64,000 nucleotides of DNA from Macrocystis pyrifera (lineage: Eukaryota > Sar > Phaeophyceae > Laminariales > Laminariaceae), in the NCBI GenBank assembly GCA_031763025.1, contig JASSKH010000007.1, forward strand, positions 6,897,930 through 6,961,929. The letters are read 5' to 3'. The number at the start of each line of letters is the position of its first letter. The stretch's first letter is position 1. The notes below the pieces were generated by a model. The model was not told the origin of the DNA. It made no database searches and saw only the letters and a list, made by a program, of their open reading frames with translations. Shown one piece after another: positions 1,228 through 56,100 of the stretch. The translations under genes and the position numbers were made by a program.

Positions 1228-4200
1228 GTAGGAAACGCTCACATGCCATTATAACAGAAAGGCAGTAGTAAACTGCTGCTGCTGAAGTGCACAACGTACT
1301 GCTGTAGTCAGTGCCTGCCTGCGGTGGTGGTGACCTCGATCCTTGGAAGGCAAGGCAAGGTTTCTTTCTTCAGCACACTGCTTGCTCAGTCCGTTTTTCA
1401 CAGCACCAGTTTACCGCTTGCTTGCTTCTACAAGCTACCAGTAGCACATCCTCCTCGCCTGGCCCTTCGCCCGCGGGCCAAAGGGCGTGCCTCCTGTCTG
1501 CCTCCTGGTCTGCCTTCTGCCGGTCGCGTCGAGCAAGCGAGTGGATGATCCTGTCTCGTTGGAAATTGGGAATTGCGGATCGGTTTTTCGTTGGAAATTG
1601 AGTATAATAATATTAATAGTACTGGTGTGATGACGTACATACGTGTCGTGCTCGTATATCCAAAATAAAAAAAATACCAGTATAAAACGGGTCGTAAATA
1701 ACGGTCGTGTCTACAAACAAGAACCTCCCCAAGAGCGACAGCAGGTCGGCTGCGCCCGGCCCAAGCACCACCGCACTCTTGCCACGGCACGTTGCTGGAG
1801 ATAACGGCGAGAGCACTATCACCTGCTGCTTGCTGCTGTTTCTCGCCGAGAAGGGGCGATGATGTAAAGGAGGATCCGATCCGAGAAGAGAAGTCAGATC
1901 ATTTCGTTTTTTTCCTTCACGATATATTGGCTTCCGTTTTTTCAAGTTTCGCAGCGCGTATTGCATACTCTTATACCTGGTATTTGCGTGCTACATGGCG
2001 ATAATAATATAGTCTCTGCCGCTGCTGCAAGCAGCAGCAGCAACAACAACAGTTCGTTCTTTTATCCCAACTCTCGCCAAAAAATATCCAAGTGCGGCAG
2101 TTACAGCTGTATAGTTTCAACGTCGCTTTCCAATAAATATCTCGATCTCACAGCTATTTTTAATAGCTTATAATAGCTGTTGTTTTTCCTTTTCATAAAA
2201 ATATGTGGGTGCTTGCTCGCGAAGCCGCGAGGATGTTATTTCTTCTTCGCTAAAAAGCTCTCTGTGCGCGGCATTTATCTGCGTCAGTCGAGCTTACCGA
2301 GACTGTTTTGCTCGTCCGCAGTAGTTGTATACCTGGTGCAGAGAACACCGCGGAATAGAGCTTACGTGCGATACGTAGGACAGCGCAACACTTTTTTTTA
2401 TACATACCAGCATACTTCAGTCGCATAGACTTAAAAAAGTTTTTTTTTCGTTCGGAAAAAAGTCTAATTTCCACTGAAATCTTCTCTTAATTTTTTTCGT
2501 CGGCCAAGCCGTCGTTTCTTTATCCAAGCAACTGCTATGGTAGTACCGGAATTAGTGCCAACGTCATATAGGAACAATTCCTATTACCCATCCATCAGGT
2601 ATTTTGCTGTGAATAACGTTTATTATGTTATTGTCAACCCTGGCTGAAAGATGGAAGTCTATATATAGCCACAGGCGGGACGAAATCAATGTTAACCATT
2701 ATTGTTTTGTTGGTATACCCCGTCCCGCGCCCGGACGGCATAATAGCTCGAGTGCCTGGCCAGAGACAATAATTCCGTTTTATACTATTACGGGGGTCCA
2801 TAGTTAACAGGACCAAATTTTGTTAGTAAAAATAGGTAAATATATAGGTTTTTATGTATACCATAGGTCCTATTAACTACGTACCCCCGTAATAGTATAC
2901 TGCCACTATTAGTGCTCATGTGCGGCAGTACGAGTGAAGTGTCCGATAAGAGGGAATGCTGCTGCTGGTGCTGCCGCTGTTGCGCTACTGCTGCATTACG
3001 GTGTGTTATATCTCTGTGTCGTAGTCTGTGACCACAGAGCTCGTATATTTCTAGGGTGAAGAATCAGCACGGACACTGGGCTTGCTGGATGTCGACGAGT
3101 AGAAGAACGGTTTAATGTGAAGAACACACCACACACACACACCACTCACAATGGTGATCCATTCATTGGTTGTGTTGTATGAAACAGCTTCTTCTGGCTA
3201 CATATTGGATCGATGAGCGGCGGAGGGGAGGGGACACGACGGTCGGCGACGAAAACAAAAATGAAACTTGGGGCGAGACACGTCGTAGTAAAGCGTGCAA
3301 TGTTGCTGATTTACCTGTTACCACCCACCACCCACCAGGTGTACACGCGTACTCGTATATTTCTATGTTCATACAGCAAATATCGCATCACAAATACAAG
3401 AATGATATAAGCGCCAGGTATAATGCAGCTGCAAGGTTATTTATAACGCGATATATTTGGTATATACAAGTATATTATGTATGTATGTGAAATATACGAG
3501 TCGGGTGTTCGATTTTTTTACGTATTATTCTTTCCTTTCAGTTTTTTGAAGGCCGCATCATAACATGGAACAGACTCATTCGATTCACACATAGTACCAG
3601 GTAATTTCTCATCGTCTAAATAATATAGCACCTGCCTGTGCTCGCCTGTGATTATTAAAGTTCGATGGTTTCGATCTATTGAGTCCGCAGCAATCAACCC
3701 TTCGATAGACAGCTCTAAGTCGCCTGCAATCAGTCTCCTAGCGTGGCGCTGCCCAACGCGATTCGAAAAGCGGAGATCACTGCTCTATCCGAGTCGATTC
3801 AGCTGGCCGCGGGCCTCGGCCCCGCGCCAACGTGTGGTAAAATAAATGTTGCCATGACCTCAACCCGGCATTTTCTCAGAATTTTCTCTGATTTCTCGAA
3901 TTGTGACCATTGTGCTTATTTATTTATTCTATTTGTGAAGATGCGGCAATACAACCAGTTTACAATACACGAATTAATGTAACTACGCAATAATTGCGAC
4001 AGCCCCGCCGAACCGACATCAGTCGCTGCCCACCGCACGTTTGACCCACCCAATCCACTGATCCTTGGTGGGCGGGCCTCACTTATTAGCCTTACGTAGT
4101 AGCGCAGCCACGACGACGTTCTACAACACCCCGGGCAGTTTCATTATCGAGTGCACCCACCCCCACCCCCCCGCTCGCACACAGCCCCCCTCCCTCTGCC

Positions 4201-6292
4201 ACCGCGATGTCGTATAAAGTTGAGGTTAACTTCCTTCGTCCCCCGCGCCCGCCGGCCACCCCATCCTCTGGCCGTGTCGGCCTAGAACTCCTTCCTCCAT
4301 TGTCTTGCGGAGGTACTGGGACTGGTCTCGACCGTTGCGTAAACAACATCGCCGCCCTCGACGCTGCCAAACCGTTGCGCATACGGAGGACAAGAAGGCA
4401 AAAGCAGAAAGAATGAGGCGCGAGCGATCCGCCCCCCCCCCCCCCCCGCGCTTAACCTTTCTCCCCGCGCCGTTTAGCTTCACGAGCCTGACGTGACCTT
4501 CCCCCCCCCCAGCCCCCCCCCCCCCCCCTCCCTTTCTCTCCCCTTCTGCCTTCGTTCCGTTTGTTTTGTCTCTCGGTGCTTGATTGCTGTCCACTTCGCG
4601 CAGTTCCGGAATCGGCCGTGAAGTTCCTCGTACCCAGCTACCTTGCGGGGATATTGATCGGCAAAAAAGGCGCCACGATTAAGGACGTGAGTATCATATA
4701 ATATATTTTACATGCGCACTACCTGGTACGTGTGCTACCCGGTACCCGGTACGCAAAGAGACAACTTTGAGCGATAGCAGTGTCGCCAAAGTGTGTGCGA
4801 GAGGCATAGATAAAAACGCGCGATGCTTGTGGCGGGGCTCGAACGCACGCATGCACCGCCCCGCCCGCGCTCCCTGAATCGTCATGGACGAACGACACCC
4901 ACTGGTCTCTCTCTCTCTCTCCACCATCCACCACCCGCCGCTACCATGACCTACCCCACACATCATGACGCCATGATCTCGAATCTCTACCTATCACCGG
5001 TCTCGAGTTTCAGACTTGAAGAGTTTCGGTTCATGTTTTCTCGTGCGACCACTTTCTCCGCTTGAGTTTAGTCTTTTGCGCGAGCCATTCATGGCCCAGA
5101 GCAATCAATGCCTGTACCGTACCGCACACGATTCCATCTTCCGCCCGAGCGAGAACAGTTACTACCAGACGCAGGTTGACCGAGGGCGTCTGCTTGCCTC
5201 TTTTACCGCCCCGCGGAGGGTCTATGGTAATACCACTACGGCCGTACATGATATTGAGTACACCCTCACTGCACGATTTCTCGCTGTACTCGAGAAAGCG
5301 TCGCGCGTGTCAACGCTTTTGACGGAACCACCCCCCTCAACCATTGTGTGCAAAAAAACAAACGGGCTGCTACCGTTCGTTCTCCGAGCCGTTGATCCGT
5401 ACTGTTCGTCGTCCTTACCGTTGGTGGTACCGTTGATGGCCAACCCGTCAAACGAAACGCACTGACTGGTTGCGTACCGCATGGTCTACAGTTATTTATA
5501 CCGCTGTCGTTTTCTTTGTGGTTCTACTCTAGAAAGTGCGTGTGCATGCACATGAGCAGCCAGTCCATGCCTCGATGCGTTGATGGCGGTTCCGCGGGAT
5601 ACAGGCGGAGGGGGGGCCTCATGACGGCCGCTGCACGTGTAAACATATGCCCCCTCTGCGCCAAAAGTAGGAGGCCATCTACATCCCATGTCTGTAGAGA
5701 GGCCCTCAGCTTGCTTATTTATCCAAAACCAATCGATCTCAAACCTCTGTTCTCACTCGGCATCGCTCGCGTGTCTGACAACAAGGCAGAGCAGCTTCTC
5801 CTCCTCCTTCTCCTCCTCCTCCTCCTCCTCCTCCCCCTCCTGCTGCTTGTGATTTCCTGACCAATGTTCTCCTCTGATCGGTCTCCTCCCTTGTCCATTA
5901 ATTTTAGTCCCCGCCCTCGACTCGATTATTAAAAAATAAAAACAGATCCAGCTCAAGTCTTCGTGTGTCGTTCGAATCGCGACAAGCGGGATGTACTTTC
6001 CCGGGACGATGGAGAGGGCGGTGCTCGTGGCGGGAGGGAGCGAGGGAGTCAAGGTGGGGGAATGTTGTTTGTTGTGCATGGTGCTGGTGGGGGGTGTTTT
6101 TTGGCGACCGCTGGCCAAATTACAGCGTAATTACTGCATCTTTACACGTTGCAAACGGAACTCTTTCCCGTTGCTTGTGTCCATAGCGCAGGAAGAGGAA
6201 GGTGGCGAGAAGAAAGGAAGGGGGGGGGGTCGAAGGGGAATCACATAGAGAGTGGAACAGCGAGAGAAACACAGAGAGAGAGAGAGGGAGAG

Positions 6293-6340
<48 letters not shown>

Positions 6341-9300
6341 GAGAGAGGGAGAGACAGAGGACAGAGACAGAGAGAGCAAAAACAGAGAAGGAGGCAGAGA
6401 GAGACAGAGAGAGATCCAAAGTTTTCATGAACGTGACTATGTACTCACCTACACGACGGCGCTCCTCTGTGTGTGTTTTTTCCCTATATTCCCCCTGTTT
6501 CTTGTTGTTCCAGAAAGCGTGCAGCCTCATCCTCCACACCATCCACGTCCCGAACAACAACGTATCGGGTTGCGCTCAGCTCGTCAGCCAGGAAAAGGCG
6601 GACACCATTGAGCTGACCCAGGTACATCATCAGTAACGGGAAGAACAGCAGCAGAGAACGTATCATATCCACGGGATGTCCTCCTCCACGCTTCAGGGAC
6701 CGTTGTGTCGCATGATACCAAGCGCAGTACATTTATTACTCGAGAAACGACATTTCGTGCACGCGCAGTTTTCTGATTTGTTCTGCAATTTTTTTTCATT
6801 TCAGGCCGAACTTTTTAATGTGATCCGCGAGAGTCCAGAGTTTTCGGAACAAGGCCCGCTAAACGTTCGCGGGGCCACATGTACGACTACTTGCACGGCC
6901 TTGGCCGTGCGTAGATGTTTTTTGATTCGCACCGAGTGTTATTCGGTATCCATGCCTTATCGTGGCATGCACAGGAGGTAGGTGGTGTTGGATACCGAAC
7001 GATAATACGATATCGATATGATACCGAACGATAAATACGATACCGATACGTACGATACTGGAGGAAATACGCATACAGACGTGACCCTGTCGCCCTGAAG
7101 GCTGTTCGCTTCATGTCATACATTTGCCTTACATTCTACAAGAAAAAAACATGTGATCAACTGGTACTACTGCTGTAGTCCATCGATATACCTGGTATAC
7201 AATATATATATATATATTTGGTTATACTTGCGTATTCCGTTTCAGCGAAAAATGTTATGTGGTGGGGTTATAGCCGGTGCACTGGCAATAAAGAATGACA
7301 GGAAATATCCAGGAAGTGTTCGACAGGTCGGTAATTTCAGTAGTATTTCAAAATGAGCCGTTTTTTTTTTTTTATCTGACCCCCGGCATATCGCCAAAAT
7401 GATTGAAATAAATGGTACCTGACCCTGTCAATAAAATCTACCAGGTACTATGCTACAACAGTAACTATTTCTGCTGAAGACTAGCCGTAGAACCCTAACT
7501 CATCGCTTAAGAAATTTCTCGGAAAGAAGAATAATGAGGCGTTTGCGTGTACCATCAACCATTTCGTCGAAACTGGGCCGAGTCACTGCTTTATATTTAT
7601 ACTTAATTTAAAAAAAAATTAGCCCGTATATGGGGCATCTTGAACAGGCAGTTGAACAACAATGCGAGTGAGTGCAGTTGCCACCGTTCCCTTATGTCCA
7701 TCGATTCACTTCTCCTGTACTCTCCGAGTGTATCATGAAGTAGTACTACTAGTAGTCTAGGCAACGGATACCTCACCGTTCATCTATCATCCGACGCTTG
7801 TACGTGGTTGAGGGCCACTTCTCTGCATGATACGGATAAACTGCCTGGCACAGAGCAACAACAGCAGTGGTGGCGTGCATTTAGGATTTACAGGCAGTGT
7901 GACTGCACTCCCGCTGTGGGCACAAAACACTTGCATCTACACTCAGAACTTGGTGCATGTACACTGCAGCACCATGATGACGGTCCAGAGTAAATAGGAC
8001 CCACGGTACGCACAAAAAACCTATATACTTGCCTATTTTTACTAACAATATTGGGTCCTATTTACTATGACCCCCCGTTAATATTATACAGCGCTTTTAG
8101 AACTGCAGTCAGTCCCGTTTTAGGGACAAAGTACTTGGAATTTGACTGCTTTGTCACCAAAACGGTTATGCAGTCTCAAAAGGGCCAAGTAAGACCACCC
8201 CGCGACAACGCCATATACATACATACGTACTATTAATATTAACAACTGTCATTTATCTAATATACTACCTGGTAGTAGGTCTTCTATTTTGAAACTGACC
8301 TTACTTACTGGTTCCAGAACTACTTTTTTTTCGTGACGAGCCGGTTTTACCTCGCGGTCTCATCTCCCGAAAAATCTTATTACCCCAACCCGATCCACTA
8401 ATCTTAATAATGTATGGGTTTATTACAGTAGTTGTTGTCGTCGTCGCGTGCACAGACTGTAGTCTACGACAACCCTACAAGTAGTGGTATAGTGGTGTCG
8501 AATAAGTTGTAAGCTCTACTGTTTTTTTTTTTTTTTTTTTTTTTTCTTCCATCACTTTTACTTTCCAGCCCACTCGTAGGAGGTTTTACCCTCGACGATC
8601 TTCTGGACAAGCCGTGGTCACAGGTGTCGTCCCTTCTCCCCCCCGGTACGTGCCTTTATTTTTTGTCGCGCATAGGGTTCAGCATTCCCACTGCTCGTCG
8701 ATTTTCATCGAATGTAGCCAACTCACGCTTTCGCGCTTTCCCCTTGTCAATTTTTCATGCGAGAAAAAAGTCCCTACGAGTATGAGCATGCACTCGGTGA
8801 GACTTGAACCCACGAAATTGATCTTGACAGGCACGCGGACCACCTACCAAGCCACCGGGAACGCCGGACCATACACATCAACAGTAGTAACAGTAGTAAT
8901 ACTACAATATTTAATACGGTTTTGGCAACAAGCGCGGGCACCTTTCAACCATGTGTGTTTCCCCACGTATTTATTTTTTCTCATTTGTTTCGTCACTTCG
9001 TTCGACCTCTAAACACCTCCTCCTGGCACGGAGAGCCGCAAGACCGGCCATGACACACGACACTTGTTAGCTATTACGGGGGGACCGTAGTTAATAGGAC
9101 TTACGGTACACACAAAATCCTACACATTTACTTATTTTTGCTAACAATACTTCGTCCTATTTACTGTGGTCCCCCGTAGTAAATGCTTGTGCAACAACAC
9201 CCGAAAGAAAAATGCGCCCTTTGATGCGACAAGTGTGACAAGTTAAAACGATGTTGCCTCAATTTTGAAAGTTCGAGATAGCTGTGACGCCACGGGCTGC

Positions 9301-12300
9301 TACTATTAATAGTACTAGTCGTGACAGCAGCAACAGCAGCAGAGGTACGAGTACCAGGTACTTCTTTCTTACTCCCGTGGCCCATGACAGGTGTGGCGCA
9401 TTCAACAGCACGCAACCACGCGCGAAGTACGCCCCCCCCGCTTCGTTTCCCCCGCTTTTATCCATCCGTTCCATGGAACATACGAAGCTACCGATTATTG
9501 AACGGCATGTGACAGATTGTCCGACCCTTTCAAACCATGCCTCTGCTAAAAAAAAAAAAAAAAAAAACGCGCTACTGCTGTCTGTTGTTGTCATCTTTGT
9601 CCCACCCGCTCCCCCCTCCCGCAGCGTATGCTCATCCCACTCACGGCCGGCGGGTTGGTGATCGGGCGCAAGGGGGCCAACATCTCCGCGCTCCTCGAGG
9701 CCTCGGGCGCAAAGGTGACCCTCGGACAGAAGGCCGAGATCAGGGTGCACGAGAGGATGGTCACGGTGCAGGGTAAACTGACGGCGGCGAACAAGGTGAG
9801 AGAGGCTAGGCCAGGCCAGGCCAGGCCAGGCCAGGCCAAGCCAGGCCAGGCCGGTTCGGCAACTATTATTCATGGATGCTGTGTCGTTGTCGCGTGAATC
9901 AACCCTTTTGGGCGTGCAGTCCCGTTACGGGGACAAATTACTTGAAATCAGAATGGTTTTGTCCCCAAGGCGGAGCTGCAGTCCTAAATACTTGGGGGTG
10001 TGACGTACAAGTGAGTAACGTGTTTACTGCTGTCCACTGCGCCGCAGAGACAATGTGCTCGAAATATGTAGTCTCTTGACTCCCGAGCCGGTGGCGGTCC
10101 CCAAACGGGTGGGTGCACTCTCTAGACGGGGGAGAGGGGGTTAACCGCTTGGTTTGTGTGACAAAACTACTTGGAATTGGATCAGAGGATAGTTTGAATT
10201 TTCGTTCTTGCAGTTGTGTTTGGAAGTTACAGTAGCAAATTCGGGTGTTCTGCGCTAGCTTGGAGGAGACCATGGGACCCAACATGGACCCAACCATGGA
10301 CAACCACAGTATGTTCCATGGAGCAATCCACGGAAAAAATGTGCCATGGATTGTACCGTGGTGCAGTCCATGGGTCCATGGTTTGTACCATCGCACCAGG
10401 GATAAACTAGGTGGTGAAAATTGGGTGGTCAGGCCGTTTCCTATGCGGTTCGATTTTTGAGCTTCAGATTTTGACCCGATGGCATTTTCAGATATGAACT
10501 TGGCAAATCGAAAGAGTCTTCCTATGCGCAAAAATAAGATTTATTGTGCGTGTAGAGATCGAGCAAACGCCGAGACCAACTGCTGTTATTGTGGTTTGGC
10601 GCCGCGAAGAGACGCTCTGGGTGCGCTACCCTGCGCGTAGGACCCAAGCGTCCGAGCCCACGCTGACTGCCTCTGGTCTGGCGGCGAAGAGACGTGGCGA
10701 GTGCGCTAGAGCCAACCTGTCTTGGTATTTTGTGTTTCATTTTGTGACCGACTGCTGCTGCTGCTGCTGCTGCTGCTGTACAGCAGTGTAGTCTACGAAT
10801 ACGTATCCACGGAGAGGCGCTGCCGAGTGCGCTTCTCTTGGTCTTTAGGGCCCGAGCCCGCGCCAGCCGACTCTAGTCTGGCCACGGAGGGACGCGCCTT
10901 CCGCGCGTCGGGCGCGAAGCAACGTCGCTATACAGCTGTATCCCCATCCAACTCATCGATCGTTTTGCTGCTGTTTGCTGTCGTGGATAACATGTTGAAT
11001 TTAAAGAGCATGCCATTTTTCGGTTTGAAAAATCTGATAACCCAGGTCGTCGGATTTTGGGCCAAATTGGGTCACCGGATTTTCAAATCGATTTTTTTTC
11101 CGGTCGGATTTGGCATATTTGGACTCTGCATGAGCAGGGTCAATTCATTTTTGAGATCGAAAAATACAAGTATGAAGCTCGAAATCGAACCGCATAGGAA
11201 ACAGCCTGAAATGTTTCGCGCTGGTGAAACACCTTGAAAAAACGGCCATGTGCGGATCCTTAAATGTTCGGGTCTAATTTCGCGCATTTTTTTTTTTTTT
11301 TTTTGTTGGTCTGTTGTACTCGTATTACGGGGGTCCATACTTAACAGGACCAAATATTGTTAGTAAAAATACCTAAAGTATGTGTGCCATAGGTCCTGTT
11401 AACTATGGACCCCCGTAATAGACGTTTTCTTTTGGGTTGTTCTAGTCGCAGGCGCACTATTTTTTTTGTGTGTCTTTTTAGTCGCCTTTGCGACAATGTA
11501 TTTTCGAGTTTCTGTGTGGCTTTTTTGTTGTTGCGGAATTGACTTCAAGCTATGGGTTGAACCATGGATTTGTTTATGGGCCGTCCAAGTAATGTACTAA
11601 CTGTAGATCGTTGAGAGATTATTGCCTCGACGTTTGCGCACGCACCAATACAGCAGTTTTTCTTTTTCAGTGCTGAAATTAGTCAACGGCACACATTCCC
11701 TTCCCTGCCGAACGTGAAACACATTTTGAGCCTGGCGTCGCGTGCGGTGTGACGCGGATTTCGTTTTTTAACGGAGCGTCGTTGCCCGCGGGGTGTGCAA
11801 GACTCCTAGCTGGGGCTGATGATGCGCAAGATGTATGTACCTTGAAATGACCGGACTGGGGCATACCTCCGCGGCGTCGGTTTCACCTACAGTGCCTACC
11901 CAGCTAGTGAGTGGAATACGCAGTTATCGCCGTCCTGCTGCGCCATACCGTTTAGTGCGGTTAGTTCGAGGCAATGGTAAAATAAGGGAACCTGTTGGAT
12001 ATATAGCACTATAAATACCTGCTAAAAACCCTCTGCCAGAGCTGGCTGAGTTGCTCAGTGGCTTATCCTCTGTTCACGAACACAATTGAGTACCTTGGGG
12101 CTCGAAACGGTCTCCCGCCGATAACACTCTTCGGGGTTGATCAATCCCCTGGTAGCACCGGCGCAAAGGAACGCTAGATATGTTCACGCTAGGGCTAAAT
12201 ATACATCAGGTACATCTGTATGTGAAGAGAGCTACGCCGTTCGCCGTAATGGCGGGGCACTCAACGACCTTCGCTAACACACCCGTTTCGACGTTTATTT

Positions 12301-15667: not shown

Positions 15668-17040
15668 TAAGGCATGCTGTTAATAGGGTATGCTTACATA
15701 TACATATGCAGACGCCATGATATGTAATAGTCTGGCCGTTTTTTGTTTCGTTCGTTGGTTTTTTACAGAGGTACTGGTTATATTTTTAGTGTCCTCCTGT
15801 GGTGCGTGGCGTGGGCCATGCGCGCGAAAAAATAGGGCGCTGCGGTGCGCGCCTGGCTTATTTGCCCCGCGCCTAGAAGAGCACTTTGACGTTTTCTGCG
15901 GTTTGGATTTTTTTTTTTTTTTTGTTCGGGGTTTTTATCTGTTTTTTTTTTTTTTGCTGTTTTTTCATTCCACGGCAGGTACCATTTTGTTGTTGCTGCT
16001 GTTGTTGTTGTGGTGGTGGCGGTGCACTGCTCGCTGTGAGGAGTGCCGATGCTGTATGCCAACGACGGCCCTGGAAGGCGGTTTAGACAAAAACACGACC
16101 TCGTCATATACCGAGCTATGCGTTACGAAGCAGCCGTGTGGTGAATTTACATAGGGCGCGTGTTCTCCCCCCACGGCTCCTGACTAGTTTCACCCCCACG
16201 AGTAAGCACGCCTTCGGAACCCTTTTTCATCGACTCCCGTGTTTGTCAAAGTGTGTTTTGGGCGGGTGCGAGTGGATTGACGTGGTAACACAGCAGTTAA
16301 GAAACACTCAAATAGTAGCAGGTATATATGATACTGCGTAGATACAGTAATATTCAGTGAAGCATGTATTGGTGCGGTCCCCCTTTTCCGTGAGAGATGG
16401 AGGGATTTGCTGTGCGGGGTACAAGGAGGAGGGGGGGGGGTGTGAAATCTGCCACCCGCAGAACGAACGCGAGCACTGCTGTTTTTTTAAATGTTTTTGT
16501 ACGAGATGGGAAAAAAAAAAAGTAGTAGGTGAGGTGTGATTGGCTTTTGCCCGCGAGCTCAGCCGCACAAGACGGTATCTAGAAGGAACAGCTTGTCTGA
16601 AGGTTTGAGTGGAGGATATAGCTCCAATAAACGTCCTTGTTAGGGGAAAAGCCCTCCTCTTGCGGCTTCTCTATCATAGCAGAACTATGTAGTACCTGGT
16701 ATATAGTTGTGTGGATGAAAGGGGCTCTCCACTGCGTGTTGCATGTACCTTTGTCCGTGAATTTTTACTGCTACTCTGTATACTGGATTGGGATTTTTTA
16801 TGTGATTGGATTGGGTTGGATTTAGGGTGTCACTACTAGTTGAGGTTCAATATAGCTCTACGACTTATGCGTGTACGTGGTTAGGTGAATTTATTTTGGT
16901 GTGCTTATTACTTTGTAGCGGTACATAGCGAGGGCGCCAATCGACCATCGTTTTTTTTCGTGAGCAAACCGCGTTATACTGTGCGTGATTTTTTATGCAT
17001 GCGTGTGCGCGTGCCGAAAGCCCCCCCCCCCACTGTTCAG
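15668..17040. other. intergenic or intronic DNA, no gene seen
   Basis: T-rich runs (15909-15957), a TACCTGGTA at 16693 and a short poly(G) at 16431-16440. No exon with convincing splice sites was found on either strand. Confidence 0.4.
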
Positions 17041-20859: not shown

Positions 20860-23800
20860 GAATGGCTCCACGAAATATCAATCCAGCACGAACCGAAGAT
20901 GCGGCTCCTTATATAATCCACTCCCACACATCTAACTTGCGAGGGCTACGAAGCTTCCTGAAGCATTGTCAAAAAGCAAGCAGAAAATGAAGCATATACT
21001 ACGTATACACGTAACGGTCTCGAAAAATGGCAGAGACTGAGGCTATCCGGCATCCCCAGCGATGGGACCGGAGGGGAGGGTGGTAGGAGTGCATTGTTGA
21101 GAAAGGTAAAACACCAGAAACCATCCAATCCCGTGGTATAGTAGGAGCGGCCAAACCCCCCCCGGGGGCGAAAGGAGGCGGGGATCCGCCGGAAAAATGG
21201 TGGAGGGCGAAGACGCCTCGGCATTGCACGAGGCGGTAAAAAAGGCTGACTACAGACGAAACTGACGCGGTCGCAAAAAGCTATCGGCACACGACAAGAA
21301 CATTTTCTCACCGTACCATTTCAGTGAACCGGAGGGGACATCCAACTTAGGCCCGAAGGTAGAAAGAGGCATAGCAGCAACAGCAGGGAGGGAGGTCGTG
21401 TACATGTTAAGGAATGCGCCAAAACGTGACTACTGGATGTTTTCCTACTGCTAGAGTTGGGGTGTCTAGCGGAGGCTACTGCTTACTGTGCTGCAGTCCC
21501 TACTCCCTATTGTTTCTGTGAAATGGTGCAGGATTGGGACACAGTGTATCCCTAGGTTTTGACTACTGAGCAGGTTTTCGTTGTCCTTCGCTTGTGTTTA
21601 TTGCTTAGAGATACCGGAAGGGCAGCCGTACTTCTTTTAGGGCACTATGAAGGACTGAATGGCTGGGCTCGATGCCTCTCGCTCTGAAACCTCTGATTTC
21701 CCATCTAACACACGCCTCCTAAGTAGTACAAATGCGATCCACATACCTGCACCCAAATAATTCAAGGAATTACCATATCACTAGCCCACTCTGATATGCT
21801 GTACATGAGAAAATATCGGAAATTATTGGAAACCTCGATTCCACGAACTAGAACATGAGTCGAAGATTAGTAGTAACCTCATGGAAACGAAAGAGGGAGG
21901 AAAAAAGGAAGAACGAAAAAAGGAGGCCCACCCGCAAGGGGACAGGAAATAGTACGTCAACGAAGCCACCGCCGTACCACCAGCAAGGGCGGGCGGTGGG
22001 GCGAGAATGTGCCGACGGAAACGCGAAAAGTTGAACACGAAAACTCACACAGTAATCCTGTGCCACATTATGAGTAGTAGTCAATTTCTCCAGATCGCCC
22101 CCGGCTCCGAGCGGGGGGGGGGCTCGGCAAGACAAAAAAAGCAACACAAAAAAGTCTGTCTTGGGACCACAAATGAGTGCTCCAGGTACCCAGACCAACC
22201 CCGGCACTGAGCGACGGGGGCGGGCGGGACGAAATGCTCTAAAATCACCCCAAACTCGGCCCAAAAAACTTAGAAACGTGTCTTGTGCAAGATACAAACG
22301 AGTAGCTCTATTCCGTAGACCAGCCTAGTTCCTGGGTGGGGGGGGGTAGGCTGGACGAAATACGCAAAAATCCATCCCACCCCGGCCCAAAAACTCAGAA
22401 AACGCCAAAGGAGTACCTAGAAGAAAACCCAGCCCCGAAAGCTCGCAAAACGTTGAAGGAAAAAAAGTACAAGAGATCCCCCCAAAACCCAGGAAAACGA
22501 CAAGAAAAAATATATCGAGTGTACCTGGTAGCGGCGTGCGAAAATCAGCTATCCACGGCTGCGCCTCAAGATTCCTCTACGTTACGCTGGACCCCTCGAG
22601 CAAACGCGCTAGCCAAGTGTATTTGTAGACGCCAAGAATCTCGTACAGCTCCCGTTGAAGTCGTGTAGCATGCCGGAAAGGCTGGCGGCAACCCGGCGCC
22701 TCCGCTTTCGCCGGGCGCGCTGACGGACAGCCGCTGCCACTGGTGCGACGCCGCCTGCTGATGACTATGGCTTCGGGCCCGGTGGGTCCCCTCGACCATC
22801 CGCCGGGCGAGCTCCCACTGCGCCGCGAGTCCCACGGCTGTGACCGCCTCCGGCCGCCGTTATGGGCCCCGTGGATACGGATCTTGGGGTATAACGGCTT
22901 TTTATACTTGCTGCTGTACAACGTCGCCCACAGCAGCCATTCCTTTCTGGCAGACTCTCTGTCCGGGCTCTGTCCGGTTTGTCTGGGCTTCTCTTTTGGG
23001 TAATAGTAGTTCACGTCATATTTTGCGCATGTCGGCGGGGGTGGCCATCTCGTTCAGGTGTTGAGCAAAGTGCTGACTCTGAGTAGAACGTGACTAACCC
23101 GGCCCGTCTTCACACGCTGCCCCAACGGTACCCATCCCGTCTGACCACCTCCGCGCCAAGCCTGTGGTTTTTTGGGAGTTTCGCCTCCGACTAGCGTACC
23201 GCCCGTCACAACGACCGATTTGGATCCCGTCGGTGCAGCTGCTGCATTACATTTCGATCGTTCCGCAACGTGCGGTTCGGACGGCGACCGGGCGCGGGAG
23301 AAACATACCGAGCCCGCGTGCCACGCCGCCATGCGCTAACGTAGCTCTCGGCCGGCCGGCGGCTTTGCCAAGTGGCATCTTTTGACATGTTCTTTCACAC
23401 CAGCTCCTATCACTTAAAGGGCAACGGTGTGGCGAAGCGTGAAAACTACACGATGGCCTAGATGGTGGCAGTGAACGTCAGCGAGCTCCAAAATAGCTGG
23501 GATAAGCAGTTCCCTGCTCACGCTTGAATTTGCGTACAACAATTCGGTAAGCACCGCCACAGGTTTAGCTCCCAACGAAGTTCACATGGGTCCGCACCTC
23601 TTTCTCACGATTTGCAGCACGCAGGCTGCCCGAGTTATACTCGACAGCGCGGAGCGGCTAGAGAGGCAAAACTTGCGCGGTGGTGCCGGGAGACGCAGAG
23701 CTCAAAAGGCGGCATGGCTTGCTGTCCAGAGACCAGCCTTGTAAGCGGCGTGGTTCACTGCGCAGAGGCCCTGTCCGTTAGTATTGTGTCTCTTGGCTCC

Positions 23801-25850: not shown

Positions 25851-26329
25851 GGACACGGTACTTTGTTGTTCGCTTGTATTCACAGGCGTTCATGTACTGC
25901 TGTGCGATCAGCGCGGCTAAGTGCGACGTCTCTTATCCTGCTTGTGCCTCTCCCCTACGGGAGGTGATACTGCTGGTGCTGGTGCTATGTTTCTATGAGG
26001 GTTCCGAAAATGTCTCGTACGTACATACTACTTGCGGACGCCCAGCTCAAAATATCATCTGCTCGTCATCTGTTCAGTTATACCTCTGTACCCAAGAGGT
26101 GTGACCGCAGTTGTCAGTGTTTGTGCGTGATGCTTTTGTTTCGTCATGTCCCCCACACCGGCAGATCATATGCGAATCTACTTCCTCCTCCTTGGTCTTC
26201 TCGATCCGACCAGAGGAGGGTACCGGTACCGAAAACCTCGTGCCTGGTAGCGGTACCTGGTATATGCGGGGCGCTGACCTCGTCTGTGTACTGCGTTGCT
26301 CGTGGTGCGTTGGCGTGGTCCCGCTGACG

Positions 26330-30969: not shown

Positions 30970-31799
30970 CTATCTGATGACGGAAGTAGGGTTTTAAAAA
31001 CAGCAGCAGCACCAGATCCCGATGCACACGAAACTCCCCGGGAATCAAGCAAGGGTCTAAACGAGAATATAAAAAACGAAGAGAGGTGAGGTGGTATCCA
31101 ATTTATTACTACAGTAGGCTTAAAGTGCTGGAACTTAGTATTACCAGGTATATACTTCTACTGCTTGCTGTACTGCCTGTGGCAATAACTGAGTACACGG
31201 TCGTCCCCGCCATGTGGTGGGGACTTCTGAAAATTATTGTTGTTTTCATCGTATCGCCTGTTGACTGTTGACGCTCGTTGTTGCTCCTGTGGTGAAAGTA
31301 CTGGTAGCAGCACTGCGGTTACAGAGTCGTGCTGGCTGTACACGCATCCCATCCGTGGAGTGTACAATCTAATAGTACCAGTACATACGAGTACGAATGT
31401 GCCTTGTCCTGTGGTACCTGGTATGTCACGTACCAAGCACTTTGTACCTGTACGGCACAGCAGTTTAACTTATAGTCTGTTACCTGCAGGGATCGTCGAC
31501 AATATGGATGGACATCTCGAAAATATTGGTACGACGTATACATCCGACAGGACACAAACGAAAACCGACCGTTGATCCCTTGATCATTTGGTATTTGATC
31601 GTTGATGGATTCACGGTTTCAGATCGTTACGTACGATACGATAGTGGATCTTGGATCTTAGATCCCCAACCCCCTTGTACCGTACGCCTCTTTCTTATTT
31701 TTTCCAATTTTCAATTTATTGTCGTACCACCAATAGACCTCTTCCCAGTATACTTCGAATCACAGCAGCATTGGACAACAACAAACAAAGAGCAAGAAG

Positions 31800-32831: not shown

Positions 32832-35800
32832 GCAGCGGTACTCGTATCATACACGCGAGCGCACGACATTTGGGCTGCCAGCCTCACGTTGTTGGATCTC
32901 CTAAAAGTACGTATTTAATAGAGCAGCGGTATAGACTACAGATTAGAGAGAGAGCGAGAGAGAGGGAGAGAGAGAAAACGCAAGTAACGCAGAGTCGGCC
33001 AGACTGCTGCTTGTTGTTGAAGTCTCGCCGAATATTTCCCCTGCTCCCTTGGATGCTTTTTCTTTTACGAAATAAAGAATAAAGTGCGAGAGCACTTCGT
33101 ACGCACTCAATGTAAGAGTACTATCAATACCATGTACATAGAGCAGTGTCCTGCTACTTTTCACTACGTATGATACGTGCTGATACTTGCCCTGCGGTCA
33201 TAAAAATGCTTCATTTTTGTGATGCCGCGATTCTGCGATTCTTTGAAGATTCTGCCTTTGTTGTGGGTGCTGTGCTGCAGTCCGTCCACGAGCATCAACA
33301 GCAGCAGCAACAGAGGTCATCGGCCAGCCTGTTTATTTCCCTCGAAGAACGTAACGGATCAACCTGCCGAGGGACCATGCAACTACGATTTAAAACCACT
33401 ACAGGGGTACCAGGCACAGCTATTATAGCTGTAGAACAACTACAGCAGTCAAAGGCAGGACCTGGTACCTGGTATATTCAAAATATGAAAGTTAAATATC
33501 AAAGCAAGTTCCGCCCTGGTCATGTGGTATAAGCCTCCTCTTTTCACCGTGCGAGAGGAATTACGTATGATATTCGATTTCTTCGATGGAAAGAAGGGAA
33601 ACGGATGTTTGTATCTTATACGATACCATTTGTGTGTACCATTATCTCTTATGTATGTTACGAAGATTCCTGTGTGGTGAATGATGTGCGGTTACGATAC
33701 GAGCATGAGTGTCTATCCTATTCCATCTACCTGCTACTCGTATTCTGTACAGGTACTATTAATACTGGTGTCTACGTACAGATCTGTCTGTCTGTCTGTC
33801 TGTCTGTCTCTGTGTGTTCATCCATCCTCCAGCGCATCAAGGGCGACCGAAAAAAAAAAAAATATGGCCAACACTTCCCCCCTCCACCCCAGGGCGGGCC
33901 GAAATATCCCTAACTCTGAGCATATCGCCTCCCTATTGCAAGCTTCCGCCTCCGCAGACACGAATGTGGTGCAGTGCCCGTTCAGTATGCACGGCGAAGC
34001 CTCTGCACGTTTCATGCCTGGTGTGCGCGATCGAGTTCCATATCAATCGCGAGGCGTTCGTGGGGGAGGGGATGGGTGTTGGATGTCCCCTACTCGGCTC
34101 ATCACATGGTTTTCGTTTGGCTAAACCCCCCCCCCCCCCCCCGCCGCCCTCCCGGAGGGCGCGCTTGGTGCAAGCGATGTCTGTCTGGTCGCGCCCAACT
34201 TGCTGCGTCCTGGCATTGTAGGGATGCGAGAGTCTTTCAATGGTCATGCAACTACCGCCATGCATGACATGCATGACACGACGAGTGGCGGGGCGTAACC
34301 AGAAAAAAAGCGGAGCGTTGGTCCGGTTGGTCACGTTTTTTTCTTTTTTTTTTCTCTTGGCGTACGTGGGCGGATTGGGAAACAAATAAAGCTATGAACA
34401 TGAAACGCATGTGGTGTGGTAACATGAAACCCTTCCAAGGTTTTCTCCACCGCACCTGCCCCTCTCGGGGGTCAGTCAGGTCGGGTCAACGTGCCCAGAC
34501 TCCAGGGGTAACAGCAGCCTGTTCTGATGTTGCAACGGGAGCTATGGGCTAAATCGACACACGACACGAAAATGGAACGTGGAAGTGTGGTTATTTTTAC
34601 CAATCCGCCGGAGGATAAAAAAATAAAAGAATAGAAGAATAAAAAATAAAGCTATTAATATCTACATACTGCTGTAGGTATAAAATACCCGCCGTGTGTC
34701 ATTTTAACCCGTCGCTCCTGTTACAACAGCAGAGGAGCAGGGTGCTGCTACCTCGGGCGCATGAGCATGTCGACCCGACCCGATTTGCTCCCGAAAGGAA
34801 TCAAGTGAGAGGTGGAGATGGTCACCCGAGAGAACTATTAATACATATTTTCGGAGTAGTGTGGGACTTTTGCGCTAACTCACACCCACTCGTACAAAAC
34901 CTTCGGGGTATGCTGCTTGCCCGCCGGACTCGGTCCAGTTACGGTCCACCCTATATACAATAATATACATGCCTATGGGGGCGTGGTCCTCAGTGGCTTC
35001 TGTGTTATCTTTCGCTGGCAACCGTGTATTTTTTATAATATCATATCGTATCATATCCTGACCAGGTGTGCATGATACCCAACGTCATCCGGTGAATGCC
35101 GACTCTTTTTAGGAAGTATGCGGCAACATCATACCATGGTAAGTATTAATAGTAATAATATTATTTGTAGGTTTGTACGTAATGCTGTACGTACCCATCG
35201 GCGCGTGTTAAGTGTTACTACGATTTGGATACTTGTACTTATTTTCGCGAGCGGGACACAACTATTTGTTGCGCCTCCCCCCCGTGACTCTCGAAACTCG
35301 TGATTGCTGTTGATAACAAACACCCGCTACGTAGTACCACGAGTCTCCAAGTAGCGTGTTTGACCCGCAGGTAAACGAGCACTCACTCACCTCTGGTACC
35401 CGGTACGTCAAGGGTACATGTTGCACCAGAAACTCCCTACGTACATCTAAAACTTCCACGTCCGCACAATCACCTTACTGGGGTGAATGGATGCATGCTG
35501 CAATGGTCCGTCGCCTGATGCCTGATGCCTGATGCCTGATGCCTGATGCCTGGTACGCATCACCCCTTCTATTAATAGGACAGCAGCAGCAGTAGTACCG
35601 TTTAGGGGACAAACTATCACGGAGGACCATAGTAAATAGCACCTACGGTACACACAAAAACCTATATATTGCCCTATTTTTTGCTAACATTATTTGGTCC
35701 CATTTACTATTGTGCCCCCCCCCGTAATATTAATGCTTAGAATTAGAGTGGTTTGTCCCCTAAAAGGGACTGCGGTTCTACACGGGTTAGTAGGCACGCC

Positions 35801-36257: not shown

Positions 36258-37709
36258 CCTGACACGTGGAAGACTCTACCGTTCATATTATGTGATGTTG
36301 TGATACGATACTCTTGTGATGACTCGCGGAGAGTGATGCAGCCCTCTTTTCGCATTATGTCTATACAGTCTCTCTCCATATCTCCATATATGATGCAGCT
36401 GTATTTACGATATTGAATGGGCTTGAAAGCCATAAATAGGTACACCTTCGCTTTTTTAACCATTTATGGGCGCATTACATGTTGCACTCGGGAAAATAGT
36501 TCCTGGCCCTCCCTCTGATTGACCAGCCCCCGACCATACCTATTGTTGGCTGAAAAGTTACAGGTGCACCTCTACTTTTATACAGCGTCTACTCAAATTG
36601 GGTTGTTGGCTAGGCGACGCCTCTGATTGGTCAGTCCCCGATCGACCTATTGTTGCTCAAGGGTTTCAGGTACACACCTCTCTACTGCTGTGTCTACTCA
36701 TACTGGGCTGTTGGCTAGGAGAAGCTTTCTTGCTTGGGAAATAGGCCGTTGGTAGGGAAAGCTTGATTGAACCATTTCTGCTAATAATATTACAGCAGGG
36801 GTGCTACCCGTTGGTTCACTACCCTGGTACCAGGCAGGTTTATCCGGTCGGGTAGTAACCGTCACGGGTCCGTGCCCGACCCAACCAAAGATATCAGGAG
36901 ACCTGTCGAGCAAGGGAAAGCGACAAACGTGGGCCGTCAAAGGGTGTAAGTAAGGCCGAGTGTTCCACACTCAAAACCTAGTTAATTTGGTGTCAGTGAA
37001 GGCATGTCAAGGCAGTTTTGCTGTCTGATAAGGGGTGAAGCTGTCTCCTGACATCTTTGGCGCCAACAGGGGAATCGATCGTGAACGGGCGAGAGTCCGA
37101 GTCCGACCTCCAGAATTTAGGCGGGTACCCGGGTACCCGGCCTAACTTCTAGGTACAATTGAACCCAAAAAATAGGTGAAGACCGACTGGTACAGACACA
37201 GGTCAGGTGTATTGCACCTGAAAATTTTCAGCCAACAATGGATACCGATCGGGCGCTGGCCAATCAAATCGAGGGCCGGGAAGCTTCCCGAACGCGATCT
37301 GTAGTGTACCTGTAAATGGCTCAAGAGGCGGAGGTATACCTTTTGGCCTTTTCCCTATCAATGTTGTGTATCATTACACATCAGTCATGATACAATGTAC
37401 CTGGTACACAGACAGCAGTAGTATTCGTAGTACCAGCCAGGTAACACTTAGACTCCAGGTATGGGTTTCATCAGACCGGAGGTTGTCTTTCCGTTTTTGC
37501 TTTCATGTCTCGTAAGATGTCTCGTGTCATTGTTTCTTCCTAAAAACACCGGAGGGGTCAGCAAGTCGACCGCTAATAGACCTCTTCGCCATCTCGGCTC
37601 TTGGCTCCTTCGCGTTCGACCCTCGCCTACCTGGTATATACTCACTACCGCAGTATAAACAACGCAATATAGGAACACCCATCCGCTGGCATCCGGTTCC
37701 CTCCGACGC
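36258..37709. other. intergenic DNA with a tandem duplication
   Basis: No exon recognised. A unit of about 110 bp is present twice (about 36512-36610 and 36622-36720), sharing CTCTGATTG, CAGTCCCCGA-like sequence, CCTATTGTTG and TGTTGGCTAGG. TACCTGGTA motifs are at 37398 and 37628. Confidence 0.5.
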
Positions 37710-40459: not shown

Positions 40460-40824
40460 AGTGCTCCTGCTGCCCGGCTCGTGCGTTCTTCACTTTCGTT
40501 TTCTTCCGAGCGCTTTTACCTTTCGCTGTCGATTCACTCTGTTCAACCATTATGCGCACCTGGATACGTGCGTCTGTCTGGCACATTCGTATACCAGGTA
40601 TGCAATGACGTACAACACATGCAACGTTCGTGCATCGACTGCTGTTGTAGGGCACGACACACCTGTACGCTCTGAAACCAAGTAGCTTGAGGCTTGAGTA
40701 AAAAACACGCGCTTGCCACCACAACGCTGCTTCTACACTGCTTGTACAGGACCCTGCTCCCGCTTTGCACCCTGACCCAACCCAGACTTGATCCCACCCA
40801 GCAGACCTGACCCCTCCAAACTGA

Positions 40825-41700
40825 ACCTACAGCAGTCCCTGCCCGCGAACCTGGCATTTTTTTTTCGGTTCGATAATTGTTCTCGATGACAACGACTCTG
40901 ATTGACCCGTGTTTTTTTGGAGTAGGTGCCCAACCAAGTGGGGCATCTTTTATTCTTGAATAGTAATTGGAAAACATATTATCTGTTGACTTTAGGGGGC
41001 CAGAAATCCTGTTTTTCCTCCAGCAGGAATAAAAAACTCGCGAAATTCCTGTAGGAAAAGTGGTCATATTCGAATTGAAGCATGGCACGTCCAATCCATG
41101 AACGGGGTGCTCTTGGCATTTATTTGCAATATAAGCAAGACGGTTTTTTGGGCGTTTTTATTTTTCGAACACTCTGTATATTGACGGAGTAGTTGCGTTT
41201 TGACTGTTTGGACAGCAGTCCACACTACTATTAATATTTTTACGGGGGGCCATAGCAAATAGGACCTACGTTACCCACAAAAACCTATATATTTACCTAT
41301 TTTTACTGACAATAATTGGTCCTATTTACTACCAGGTATGGTCCCCCGTAATAATGCCTACCGTAGTGATTAACCGAGAACTTATTATCCGATATTTTCA
41401 AAACGTCAATTACTCCGTCAACATTCATTATTTTCGAAAAACGAGAAGAAACATCTTGTTTCTACAGTCAAGCAATTTCGCGTTTTTTTTTGTGCGTGTA
41501 GGAGAAACACGATCTCTGGACCTAATTCGACAGATGACATTTTTTTCCATACACTATCCGAGAATAAAAGGTGCCCCACGTGGTTGGGCGGGCACCTACT
41601 CAAAAACATGGCGCGGGTCAAATAGAGTTGGTTTCATCGAGAAGCACGATTTTCTCCAAACCAAAAAAAAAATGCCAAGTTCGCTGACAGGGACTTGTAG
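40825..41700. repeat. large inverted repeat (foldback), arms over 300 bp
   Basis: The left arm (about 40825-41215) and right arm (about 41390-41700) are inverted copies: AGTAGGTGCCCAACCAAGTG at the left matches GTGGTTGGGCGGGCACCTACT at the right, with further matches (ACTCCGTCAA, GCGAAATT, TGCCAGG/TGCCAAG) in order. Arms are diverged. The spacer is almost exactly one MITE A copy. Either two opposite copies of one repeat or a foldback element. Confidence 0.65.
41236..41353. mobile_element. MITE family A copy carrying a 7-bp insertion
   Basis: The right arm reads TTTACTACCAGGTATGG where its own left arm and the family read TTTRCTATGG, so CCAGGTA has been inserted after a TA. The copy sits at the centre of a larger inverted repeat. 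Confidence 0.85.
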
Positions 41701-44597: not shown

Positions 44598-45190
44598 GTT
44601 GTTGTTGTTTTCTTCACATTAAACGTTCTTTCTACGCGTCGACATCCAGCACAACCAGTGTCCGTGCCGATTCTTCAAACCTAGAGAGATACAAGTTCTG
44701 TGGTCACAAAGCTACGCCACAGAGATACTACGTTGCCACGTATGTAATGCAATGCCATGTCATCATACTGCGTACGACAGGCACGACATACACATTCCAT
44801 GACTTAGAAAACAAAAACGAAACAAAGAGAAAAAAACAAAAACAAAAACAAAGACAATTCGAAAGAGAAAAGAAACAAAAAAAAGAAACTAAAATATACC
44901 TGGTATATGTATATACTTCAGTATAGCAACAAACCATCGTACCCCCACGTAGGGGACGTGGCAGACACTTGAAAAGAACGAGCTGGAAAAAGAAAAAGAA
45001 AAAGAAGAAAACACCACTAGTCGTCAACAGAGTAAGACTAAGAACCAAGGTAAAATAACAGTCAAACCAAACAAAGCACAAGGCATGCTCCAGGTAGCGG
45101 CAGCAGTTTATGGTACGAGTAGCACAGCCAGGGTATCCCTGCTGGCCCGCCTGGTACCTTGCTACCCTGTCTGCCACCATCGTCCAGCGT
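44598..45190 (-). mobile_element. LINE 3' fragment (UTR plus tail), minus strand
   Basis: Read on the minus strand it begins in the LINE C-terminus (VADRVARYQAG), continues through a T/C-rich 3' UTR and ends with the dispersed tail repeat (44598-44728). It is a strongly 5'-truncated copy that abuts the next LINE fragment. It is the second case where C-terminus, UTR and tail occur together in order. Confidence 0.7.
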
Positions 45191-46634: not shown

Positions 46635-46734
46635 ATATATATTAATAGTAATCAGGACTCATCGTTAACACAAAAACCTTTATATCCCAGTATTTTCACG
46701 AAGCGTATTATTTGGTCCTGATTACTGCGTATTA
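46635..46734. mobile_element. diverged MITE A relative
   Basis: TTAATAGTAATCAGGAC, ACACAAAAACCTTTATA and GGTCCTGATTACTG keep the family's layout but not its ends. It is directly followed by another family A copy. Confidence 0.5.
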
Positions 46735-47290: not shown

Positions 47291-47341
47291 GGACCCATCA
47301 TGAATACAAAAACCTACCACCTACGTAAGTCACTATTTTTA

Positions 47342-47473
47342 CTATTACGGGGGACCATAGTAAATAGGACCTACGGTAAAAAAAAAAAAAACAACTACCA
47401 GGTATATATTTACCTATCTATTTGTGCTAGCACAATTTGGTCCTATTTACTGCTGTGGTTCCCCGTAACATTA
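47342..47473. mobile_element. MITE family A copy with A run and CCAGGTA insertion
   Basis: CTATTACGGGGGACCATAG to GGTTCCCCGTAA. Where the family reads AACCTATATATTT this copy reads AACTACCAGGTATATATTT: a CCAGGTA inserted after TA with loss of one C. The ACACA segment has become a 14-nt A run. Confidence 0.8.
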
Positions 47474-47788: not shown

Positions 47789-47895
47789 ACGGGTTCTTCT
47801 TGCATACCAGGTATTTAGGAACGGAGTGTGAGATATGATGGAAAAGTAGAGAGTGTCTTCGAAGTCCGTGGTGAAAAAATACGTAAGGTGTCTTC

Positions 47896-48129: not shown

Positions 48130-48300
48130 TAGTATTAATAGTACGCGACAGCAGTTGGGAACCTTTTTTATTTTGGCCAAGACTCGCGGCTTATTGTGAA
48201 GTCAAACGTTTAACCTTTTGATTGAGCGCAGGCTATTGTATACCTGGTAGGATTTAGGGTAGCGTCCTTGCTGAGCACAAACGCTGCTGTCTGGATTAGA
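48130..48300. repeat. dispersed repeat R4, copy 2
   Basis: AGTACGCGACAGCAGTTG, GGCCAAGACTCG, GTGAAGTCAA, TAGGAT and GCTGAGCAC parallel 40030-40150. A TACCTGGTA (48241) lies where copy 1 has TACGATGTA. Confidence 0.6.
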
Positions 48301-53100: not shown

Positions 53101-56100
53101 TGGTGGTTCCTAAGTACACGTGGCTTGACAAAACACCCAAGACTGTCCCAAAACGACCGCCTGTATAAAGTTCATAGATGTGCGAGGGGCGTCTCCTGAC
53201 GGGGTGATGGCAGGGAGGCAGTCTACGTGTGCCAACACTCTCGATCGTTTCGTTTAGGTTATAGGCGGAGCAGTGTTTCGCGCACTACTTGTAAAGCAGG
53301 AGGAGAGTCCTTTGGGAAGGACGATTTTGCACAAGGCTTCCTGAAGACCCGGGATGCGCGTTAGTTGCGCGTGACAATGTACGCTTACGCTCGTGTTCAC
53401 ATATCCACCGGTCGTTCGCAAATCCATGCGCCGTCGCGGAATGTATATGAACAGCCCCTGGTGTGAAATGCCTCCATTTACGCTGGAAGCCCCTACTTTT
53501 GCCCCGGACGAGGATGGAAGCGTTTCTTTCCCTGCTTTTTAACGCCCTCTCAAGCTTTACGGTTGCCGATCGCGAGAAGGAAGCCTTCGGACCGTTTTTT
53601 ACTGTTGTGTAGCGAAGACCAATCGTGCGAATCCGCCTGAATCCTGCGATTCCGTCTGCGAGTAGCATGGGATGAAGAACGGCTTCCTGTGCGCGCTTTG
53701 CAGATAAGCGTCCAGGCCCAGACCTACCTACTGTAGAAGGCCAAAAGTGAGGGATGGTGGAATCACCAGCCCTCGCGGGAGGTGAAGCCACTGGTTGTGA
53801 CCTTAAGCTACTCGAAAGAGGAAGCACCGACGCAAACATACGTGATGGAACTGGCTTGTTGTCCTGGGACCCCGACTGAGTTTGCTTTGGTTTGGTTTGG
53901 TACCCGCCTGCAGACTGCTTGTTGCTTTTCGTGATCAGGGACTAGGTTAGCACCACAGTGGACGAAAATATAAGGAGCGGTTGGTCATCAACACGAATAC
54001 TGAACTGTTCTCACATTTCCGTCCAGAGTGGTGCAGCGGCGCAGTCGGACGATGGCCGATTTATTTTGATCTCACATGTTGTATACGTGTGTAGATAGAC
54101 GTAGAAAGGAACTTTCCGACGAAGTTATTGCCAAGAGAAAATAACGGGAGCACCGCCGGGAAAGCCTTCGTTACAGAGATGTTGGCACTATTGCCGGTAT
54201 TACTGTGGTGCAAGAAACTAACCTTTATAGCGCGTCTGAGCCACATCGCAACCCCCCTGAGCTAAACGAGCTGTGACAGCAGCCGAAAAAATGACATCAG
54301 CAAACCGCTAAAAGCTATAGGTACGGGCTTATGACGATAGAAACAAGCATTGTTTTTTTTTTTTTTTGCTCTGTCAATGCAAGCAATAGCCTATACCTGG
54401 CAAGCCACAAGCAAAGATGCTTTTGTAACCTGTCAGCCATGGTGCTCTTTTTTATACATCATCCTCCGGCGGATTGGTGATAAAACCAAAAAAGTCAAGC
54501 TCACCTTACTTCCACTCGTAAAATACGTTTCGCGTGTCAAGTTAAGGTCGGTGCGGTAGTTGGGTCTTACGCGGGAGTAGTTCCGGCAACGGCGGCAGTG
54601 GCAGCAGGAACGGCAGCAGCCTGTGTCCCATGCCTATGCCCCAATGCCGTTCATTCTACTTGCTACTGAAGGTTGGAACTTGAAAGTTCCGCCACTTACC
54701 AGTAGGGAGCGCGGGGATGCCGCCCAAAACGATTTTTTGCGCTGCCGGGCATCTTTCCTGCTCCGCGCCGCTCTCGCGACCTACGGGGAAATATCTGACG
54801 GATACATTTTTGCACCCACCCTGGAAATCACGCCAGAGTACCACGTAAAAAAAGTTGAATATTGGAGACTCCTGTCTTGTGAAAACGAAGTAGATGCCGA
54901 ACCAGCACAGGCGCTGGGTGTGCTGGACGTGGGACGCGTAGAAACAACAACAACCGTCTAATGTGATGGAACACGCGAAACACACCCGAGCACACGCAGA
55001 TTATGGCGACGAGTAAAATGTGAGAACAACAACAACCACATCCGTTCAAGCCCAGTAACTTTTTTTTTTTTTTTTTTTTTTGGCAGTAAGATGGGCTATC
55101 AACCTTTCTCTCCGTCCGTGCCCGCTCGTCCCCCACCCCCACCCCCACCCCCCTCCGTTCCTCGCCCGACACGTGTACAGACTGTTCCCCACAGCCGAAG
55201 AAGAATTGACCGCAAGCAAGGTGTCGAGCCTGGTCATGCGTCGGCACGGCAGGAAAGACGGGCGCAAGGACGGTGCCTCTGTGGACATCACCAGGCGGCG
55301 GTAAGAGAGCCACGGGGCTTTGGAATATTTGGGATCTTGAGATCTTGAGATGTTGGGCTTCGACAGGCGGCGACAGTTATTTTTTTTTTACCATGCCGTG
55401 TTTATGTTGTCAGTGCATACCTGGGAACATGTGTGTATTGTGTTAATTGTGGCCCAATGCTGTTAATCGTGATACCAGGTATGCCATATCATGTACCAGG
55501 TATATGTTACGGAAGTCGTAAGTACGTGTATGCTTTATGAGTTATACCTCGTATTTTTGTATGTATCACAGGATTGGGCACACAGACAGGTGTGCGGCCG
55601 CAGCAGTAGACGCACAGGTACATGCCGCGCTTCGAGCGCAGTGTATCAACTATTTACACGAGTTCGTAGATGCGTTTGCTGCAACGATGTGGTGGGGTGC
55701 GGATGTGTCATGGTCATCTGTACCTCCTACATCCTGCACGTGCTCATCTACTACTGCAATCAGGGCGCAAGGTCGGAGGATGGAAGCCAAGCCCTCCACG
55801 ACCGGATGGTGTCCAGCGTCCAGCACTCCACTCACTCGTTGCCCGCTCTTGTCTGTTTCGTTTCTGATGATGGTGGAAAGTTCATGACTCGGGTTTGCAA
55901 AGTGAAGTCTACAGGAAAAAGGGGCTTGTGTACTGCTGCACGTTTTTGTTGATCTGTCAGTGCTGCGGTTTGACCCTAGCCTTTGAATTGATGTCGGATT
56001 ATTTCAACTCCACGTCTGCTTCTGTTTGCTTTCTTTCTGTGGCAACCGATCAGTTCCGGCGAACAAATGGAGCGCTTCAAGAAGGCGGCAAGCGCGAAGC

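Follow-up and report, generated by a model that had tools for sequence, protein, structure and literature searches.

TACCWGGTA motifs in a Macrocystis pyrifera contig as putative footprints of transposon excision

The TACCWGGTA motif in the window

The 64,000-nucleotide stretch of Macrocystis pyrifera DNA analyzed here (the window: GenBank assembly GCA_031763025.1, contig JASSKH010000007.1, positions 6,897,930 to 6,961,929, forward strand) is rich in repeats and carries, scattered along it, a nine-base near-palindrome, TACCWGGTA, in which W stands for A or T. The original prediction had counted 24 exact instances, and all 24 listed positions proved to be exact matches in the whole window. Read on the + strand, 13 of these putative excision scars are TACCTGGTA, at 1974..1982, 4720..4728, 7189..7197, 8266..8274, 16693..16701, 22522..22530, 26254..26262, 31415..31423, 33466..33474, 37398..37406, 37628..37636, 44897..44905 and 48241..48249. 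The other 11 are TACCAGGTA, at 3595..3603, 7439..7447, 9352..9360, 30053..30061, 31142..31150, 40592..40600, 41330..41338, 47396..47404, 47805..47813, 55473..55481 and 55494..55502, the last two starting 21 bp apart.

About 0.5 instances had been claimed as the expectation for such a word; dinucleotide shuffles gave 0.38 and a Markov-2 model 0.59, and the largest count in any of 100 dinucleotide shuffles of the window was 3. Under the Markov-2 model, TACCWGGTA had the highest z in the window among TA-N5-TA words with at least five occurrences. It likewise ranked first (24) among 32 near-palindromic TA-N5-TA classes, followed by TAGGWCCTA (8), a runner-up that contains a word seen, by alignment of the copies, in a ~110-bp repeat of the window. 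As a control, we counted the motif in 486,212 bases of unrelated viral DNA, made up of 56 contig stretches, and found 4. A comparison with Rfam gave no match.

TACC and GGTA arms separated by one base occur 27 times in the window, with W at the center in 24 cases and C in 3, and the same arms at spacers of 0 and 2–11 bases occur 0–6 times each, leaving the enrichment at the one-base spacer only. The flanks of the sites do not align with one another, and such matches as they gave were overlaps of adjacent sites or pieces of nearby repeats. Because the enrichment is limited to one spacer and the flanks are not alignable, we take the unit to be 9 bp long. Its positions are compatible with a uniform spread over the window (Kolmogorov–Smirnov p=0.50).

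One-mismatch neighbors of the motif are somewhat raised, at 36 versus 13.6 expected, and were all of this surplus due to decayed scars, they would have diverged by ~10% per base. Eight of the 36 are a single odd variant, TACCAGGCA (0.59 expected), found at 111, 33408, 36828 and 58661 on the + strand and at 26241, 35547, 39544 and 52549 on the - strand, with one site at a tandem ATGCCTG array; the mirror variant TACCTGGCA occurs only once. We considered TACCAGGCA as an element end and dropped it, the sites listed having no common sequence beyond TACCAGGCA. A further word, TACCCGGTA, occurs at 4736, 4743 and 35397; the first two, which come after the motif at 4720, overlap (TACCCGGTACCCGGTA), as if the TA of a scar had been hit again.

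Empty sites, target preference and other features

By alignment, the ~110-bp repeat is present in 14 full or partial copies in the window. It is MITE-like (miniature inverted-repeat transposable element), with the form (TA)TTACGGGGG...CCCCCGTAA(TA) and inverted ends, TTACGGGGGWCCATAG, next to the flanking TA. Twelve copies lie at 2782-2898, 7982-8086, 9071-9181, 11322-11421, 14756-14808, 35606-35735, 38390-38508, 44296-44425, 46731-46827, 47672-47769, 50506-50607 and 51809-51920, and two more, both on the + strand, are interrupted by TACCWGGTA: 41234..41353 by the motif at 41330, and 47339..47473 by the motif at 47396. Scanning genome contigs for 19 bases of the repeat end yielded three that carry further copies, JALZVB010000211.1 (L001), JALZVY010000069.1 (L002) and JALZWD010000061.1 (L003), all binned as bacterial metagenome-assembled genomes with the names Saprospiraceae, Phycisphaera and Flavimaricola. 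TACCWGGTA occurs three times in L003 and in neither L001 nor the examined part of L002. The presence of the repeat in these contigs suggests that the bins contain some algal DNA; part of a bull kelp study mentions Flavimaricola and gives kelp DNA as 39.0-49.8% in whole-tissue assemblies (PMC9238374). The viral contigs gave no match to the repeat end, with none of the 56 stretches carrying the repeat in a 14-base scan, and none of four viral stretches matching a reverse-transcriptase pattern was confirmed.

We replaced the motif with TA at each of 27 sites (24 in the window, 3 in L003) and compared these emptied sequences by alignment with the window and L001–L003, accepting junction-spanning matches at E up to 1e-3. 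The proposal that the motif is an insertion was supported by this comparison, in which copies of the interspersed repeat served as empty sites for four of the 27. Two cases, 41330 and L003:2762, are clean, with TACCWGGTA adding 7 bp where the other copies have a TA. The 41330 site is matched through the TA, with no gap, by repeat copies that include 2786-2856, 44304-44374, 51847-51917, L001:1-74 and L003:425-499, and a few others have small indels of their own at the equivalent place (for example, 47711-47787). At L003:2762, GGTCC-TA-TTAACTATGG has become GGTCC-TACCTGGTA-TTAACTATGG, with some of the empty copies having TG or CG instead of TA. Two other sites are probably 7-bp gains too: at 47396 the right side and the TA agree cleanly and the left has five further bases, an expanded A-run, and at L003:2824 the right-hand junction agrees and there are four further bases on the left. 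None of the aligned repeat copies has the motif at the same position as another, which disfavors the motif as a conserved part of the repeat. The remaining 23 sites had no comparable copy, a laxer cut-off giving only a few weak matches, and for these the 7-bp gain is an extrapolation.

The bases outside the TAs of the motif are also biased. Because the target consensus of Sleeping Beauty is reportedly AYATATRT, we chose the pattern TRT and found it in 11 of 48 flanks, compared with 4.9% of all TAs in the window (p=1.7e-5), or per site in 10 of 24 versus 9.5% (p=3.4e-5); drawing 24 TA sites at random reached 10/24 in 1 of 100,000 trials. These TRT flanks amount to an AT-rich palindromic target preference of the kind seen with Tc1/mariner footprints. 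For the ZB transposon, a palindromic AT repeat is described as the preferred target (PMC7913693).

A second short word may offer a parallel. TATTAATA has a TA on either side of two bases that match the start of the TTACGGGGG repeat end and are followed by their mirror, and it has 16 dispersed sites versus 0.35 expected: 1611, 8231, 9304, 33757, 34653, 34836, 35144, 35570, 38389, 39836, 39996, 41229, 44279, 44472, 46640 and 48133. GTA flanks are found at 12/32 for TATTAATA and 5/17 for the TTACGGGGG repeat ends against a background of 2%, and TRT flanks are not raised for either (1/32 and 0/17); for TACCWGGTA the pattern is reversed, with GTA at 3/48 and TRT at 11/48. We conclude that TATTAATA is probably what the TTACGGGGG repeat leaves behind, a 2-nt footprint and a circumstantial parallel to the TACCWGGTA scars, and that two scar types with two flank preferences would fit two transposases. 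The TATTAATA and repeat sets are not wholly independent, since a few TATTAATA sites adjoin repeat copies.

The original prediction had also placed none of the 24 motifs in an exon, a claim that was neither confirmed nor refuted. In its favor, no motif falls in the four open reading frames (ORFs) that we treated as coding (4,725 bases in total), although 0/24 is not significant, as about 1.8 would be expected. Against it, the sites at 9352, 26254, 55473 and 55494 lie inside other ORFs without stops that rank in the top 70 on a rough codon score. The site at 26254 falls within the segment that was scored, and Pfam gave no match for the ORF containing 9352. For the four coding-treated ORFs, Pfam gave KH_1 and RVT_1 above the cut-off, one RVT_1 below it and one ORF with no match, the last being an inverted copy of the ORF with the below-cut-off RVT_1. 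The ORF at 12565-14274 combines a long glutamine tract with a KH domain. A LINE-type (long interspersed nuclear element) reverse transcriptase is present in the window, and reverse-transcriptase fragments at 42543-43215 and 45407-46078 form an inverted pair with a similarity of 80% over 544 bases and 73% over 163. There is also a run of at least 82 C at 15334-15415, with more long C or G runs elsewhere.

Proposed excision and its alternatives

We consider it likely that all 24 motifs were left by the excision of elements from a single TA-targeting, Tc1/mariner-like cut-and-paste family whose ends start with CCW or CCWGG. Insertion of such an element would duplicate the TA; at excision the transposase would cut inside each end, so that a few terminal bases stay beside each TA, and repair would join these leftover bases to give TA-CCWGG-TA. 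We infer the former presence of a larger element, the overhang, the joining and the kinship to Tc1/mariner.

The joining could take two forms. In one, 5-nt overhangs of CCAGG (or CCTGG) would pair except at the center, where an A:A or T:T mismatch would be repaired to A or T; a self-pairing overhang of this kind would account for the uniformity of the scars. In the other, 3-nt ends, CCW, would be joined with the loss of one base (CCA+GG or CC+TGG). This 3+2 joining is the plainer option, and a 5-nt stagger is not needed, because totals of 5 bp have been inferred for Stowaway footprints in the part of that work drawn on here (PMC1925063). We therefore hold only tentatively, and with some doubt, the stronger proposal that a single transposase family makes its cuts 5 nt into the element ends and leaves a self-annealing CCWGG overhang, producing near-invariant scars every 2-3 kb that far outnumber resident elements.

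Several observations weigh against excision as the source of the motif. Only four of the 27 sites could be compared with an empty copy, two of them imperfectly, and no clean empty site was found for TATTAATA among 20 sites tried, which gave two spanning alignments, with two further L001 sites left out. The TRT pattern was selected after the flank counts were known, and the largest single-position deviation lies elsewhere, T at +6 (25/48 versus 12.3 expected), with no explanation. TACWGTA, reportedly the footprint of Sleeping Beauty and symmetric except at its center, is not enriched (12 versus 9.7 expected), and no parent element for TACCWGGTA was found in the window or L001–L003. Finally, the residue here is 5 bp and near-invariant, above the 2-4 bp quoted as usual for Tc1/mariner (0-3 for ZB; PMC7913693), and whereas plant Stowaway footprints vary, here one W-centered form recurs at 24 dispersed sites.

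The search for a parent took several routes. TA-flanked inverted ends starting CCNGG gave no candidate among the best 12 of 309 pairs, the top one belonging to an inverted LINE duplication; TA-flanked inverted 14-mers gave 52 matches and CC-starting inverted ends 12 pairs, again with no candidate. Among sequences shared after TACC in the window and L001–L003, there was no candidate in 40 of 84 pairs, these lying in known repeats or a C-run. The TTACGGGGG repeat was rejected as parent, as its ends cannot give CCWGG. So was an element of ~1.1 kb at 18871-19990, whose TA-flanked, matching inverted ends, CTTCCTCTGTCCCA, cannot give CCWGG either; these ends are near the Stowaway end consensus CTCCCTCCRT, and the element contains a tandem array with ACTTGGGGGTCCC units.

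With no parent found and the gained unit identical in the clean cases, one might suppose that a 7-bp unit (CCWGG plus a copy of the TA) was added directly at TA and that a larger element was never there, an abortive transposase or repair reaction being one example. We think this improbable: we know of no reaction that adds a 7-bp unit directly at TA, and a duplicated TA with a mirror-image residue is what element excision is expected to leave. A word with a function, such as a binding site, that selection has kept or spread would also fit a near-palindrome far above chance. It is distinctly less probable still, given that the motif is absent from other copies of the same repeat in the testable cases, that its positions fit a uniform spread and that its flank preference is better matched by insertion at TA. 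Very little speaks for the motif as the part that an ancient, longer repeat conserved while the rest decayed; the window is repeat-rich and one-mismatch neighbors are raised, but no flank sharing is tied to the motif, which ends abruptly at 9 bp. That it arose from faulty sequencing or assembly is hardly credible, as TACCWGGTA also breaks into the ~110-bp repeat, at different places, in the contig of a separate public record (L003).

If the motifs are excision footprints, what is unusual is their uniformity and density, not their size. Excision scars are usually few and varied. Where the scar is uniform and the state of the site before insertion is known, an assembly would reveal how many excisions took place, when and at which targets, and a transposase or repair pathway that joins ends with unusual regularity would be indicated. 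On the stronger proposal, extrapolation would give ~10^5 scars per genome, provided that the window is representative and the genome measures some hundreds of megabases; if true, the scars would form a countable, dateable record of excision events, which may recur regularly with every life cycle. A uniform scar would also lead one to expect many 7-bp indels between strains, and it warns against taking TACCWGGTA for a regulatory site.

Comparison with known transposons

We found no report of a TACCWGGTA scar in the literature on the motif, on mariner, MITE or Stowaway footprints or on brown-alga transposons, and nothing for mariner with '5-bp footprint' or for Saccharina japonica with mariner, in searches that left subscription papers mostly outside. 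The whole words 'footprint' and 'excision' are absent from the main text of a study of Ectocarpus transposons (PMC12477816).

In mariner and Stowaway excision, as described in part of one account, a staggered cut inside the end leaves the target-site duplication and a short single-stranded piece of end sequence (PMC4561436). PIF/Harbinger (Tourist) elements, by the same account, make a 3-bp duplication and mostly excise precisely (PMC4561436), and we rejected such an origin, as the clean sites show a 2-bp TA duplication and a 5-bp residue. With Tc1/mariner elements such as Sleeping Beauty, ZB and Passer, the motif shares the TA target and its duplication and the short end residue between two TAs; insertion with TA duplicated is seen in the two clean gains and in the two with extra left-hand changes. 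For Passer, footprints of 0-4 are given (PMC9976928).

Stowaway comes closest in the size of the residue. In the grass data consulted, footprints were inferred to keep 2-4 bp from one side and 1-2 from the other, 3-6 bp in total, with TACTC...AGTA as an example of 5 bp and five distinct footprints inferred at one intron site (PMC1925063), so that a 5-bp residue is not unprecedented. Stowaway ends differ in starting CTCCCTCCRT, not CCW. The Ectocarpus study, in the part used here, describes 17 Mariner-Tc1 families with almost 12,000 copies, mostly non-autonomous, in this brown alga (PMC12477816).

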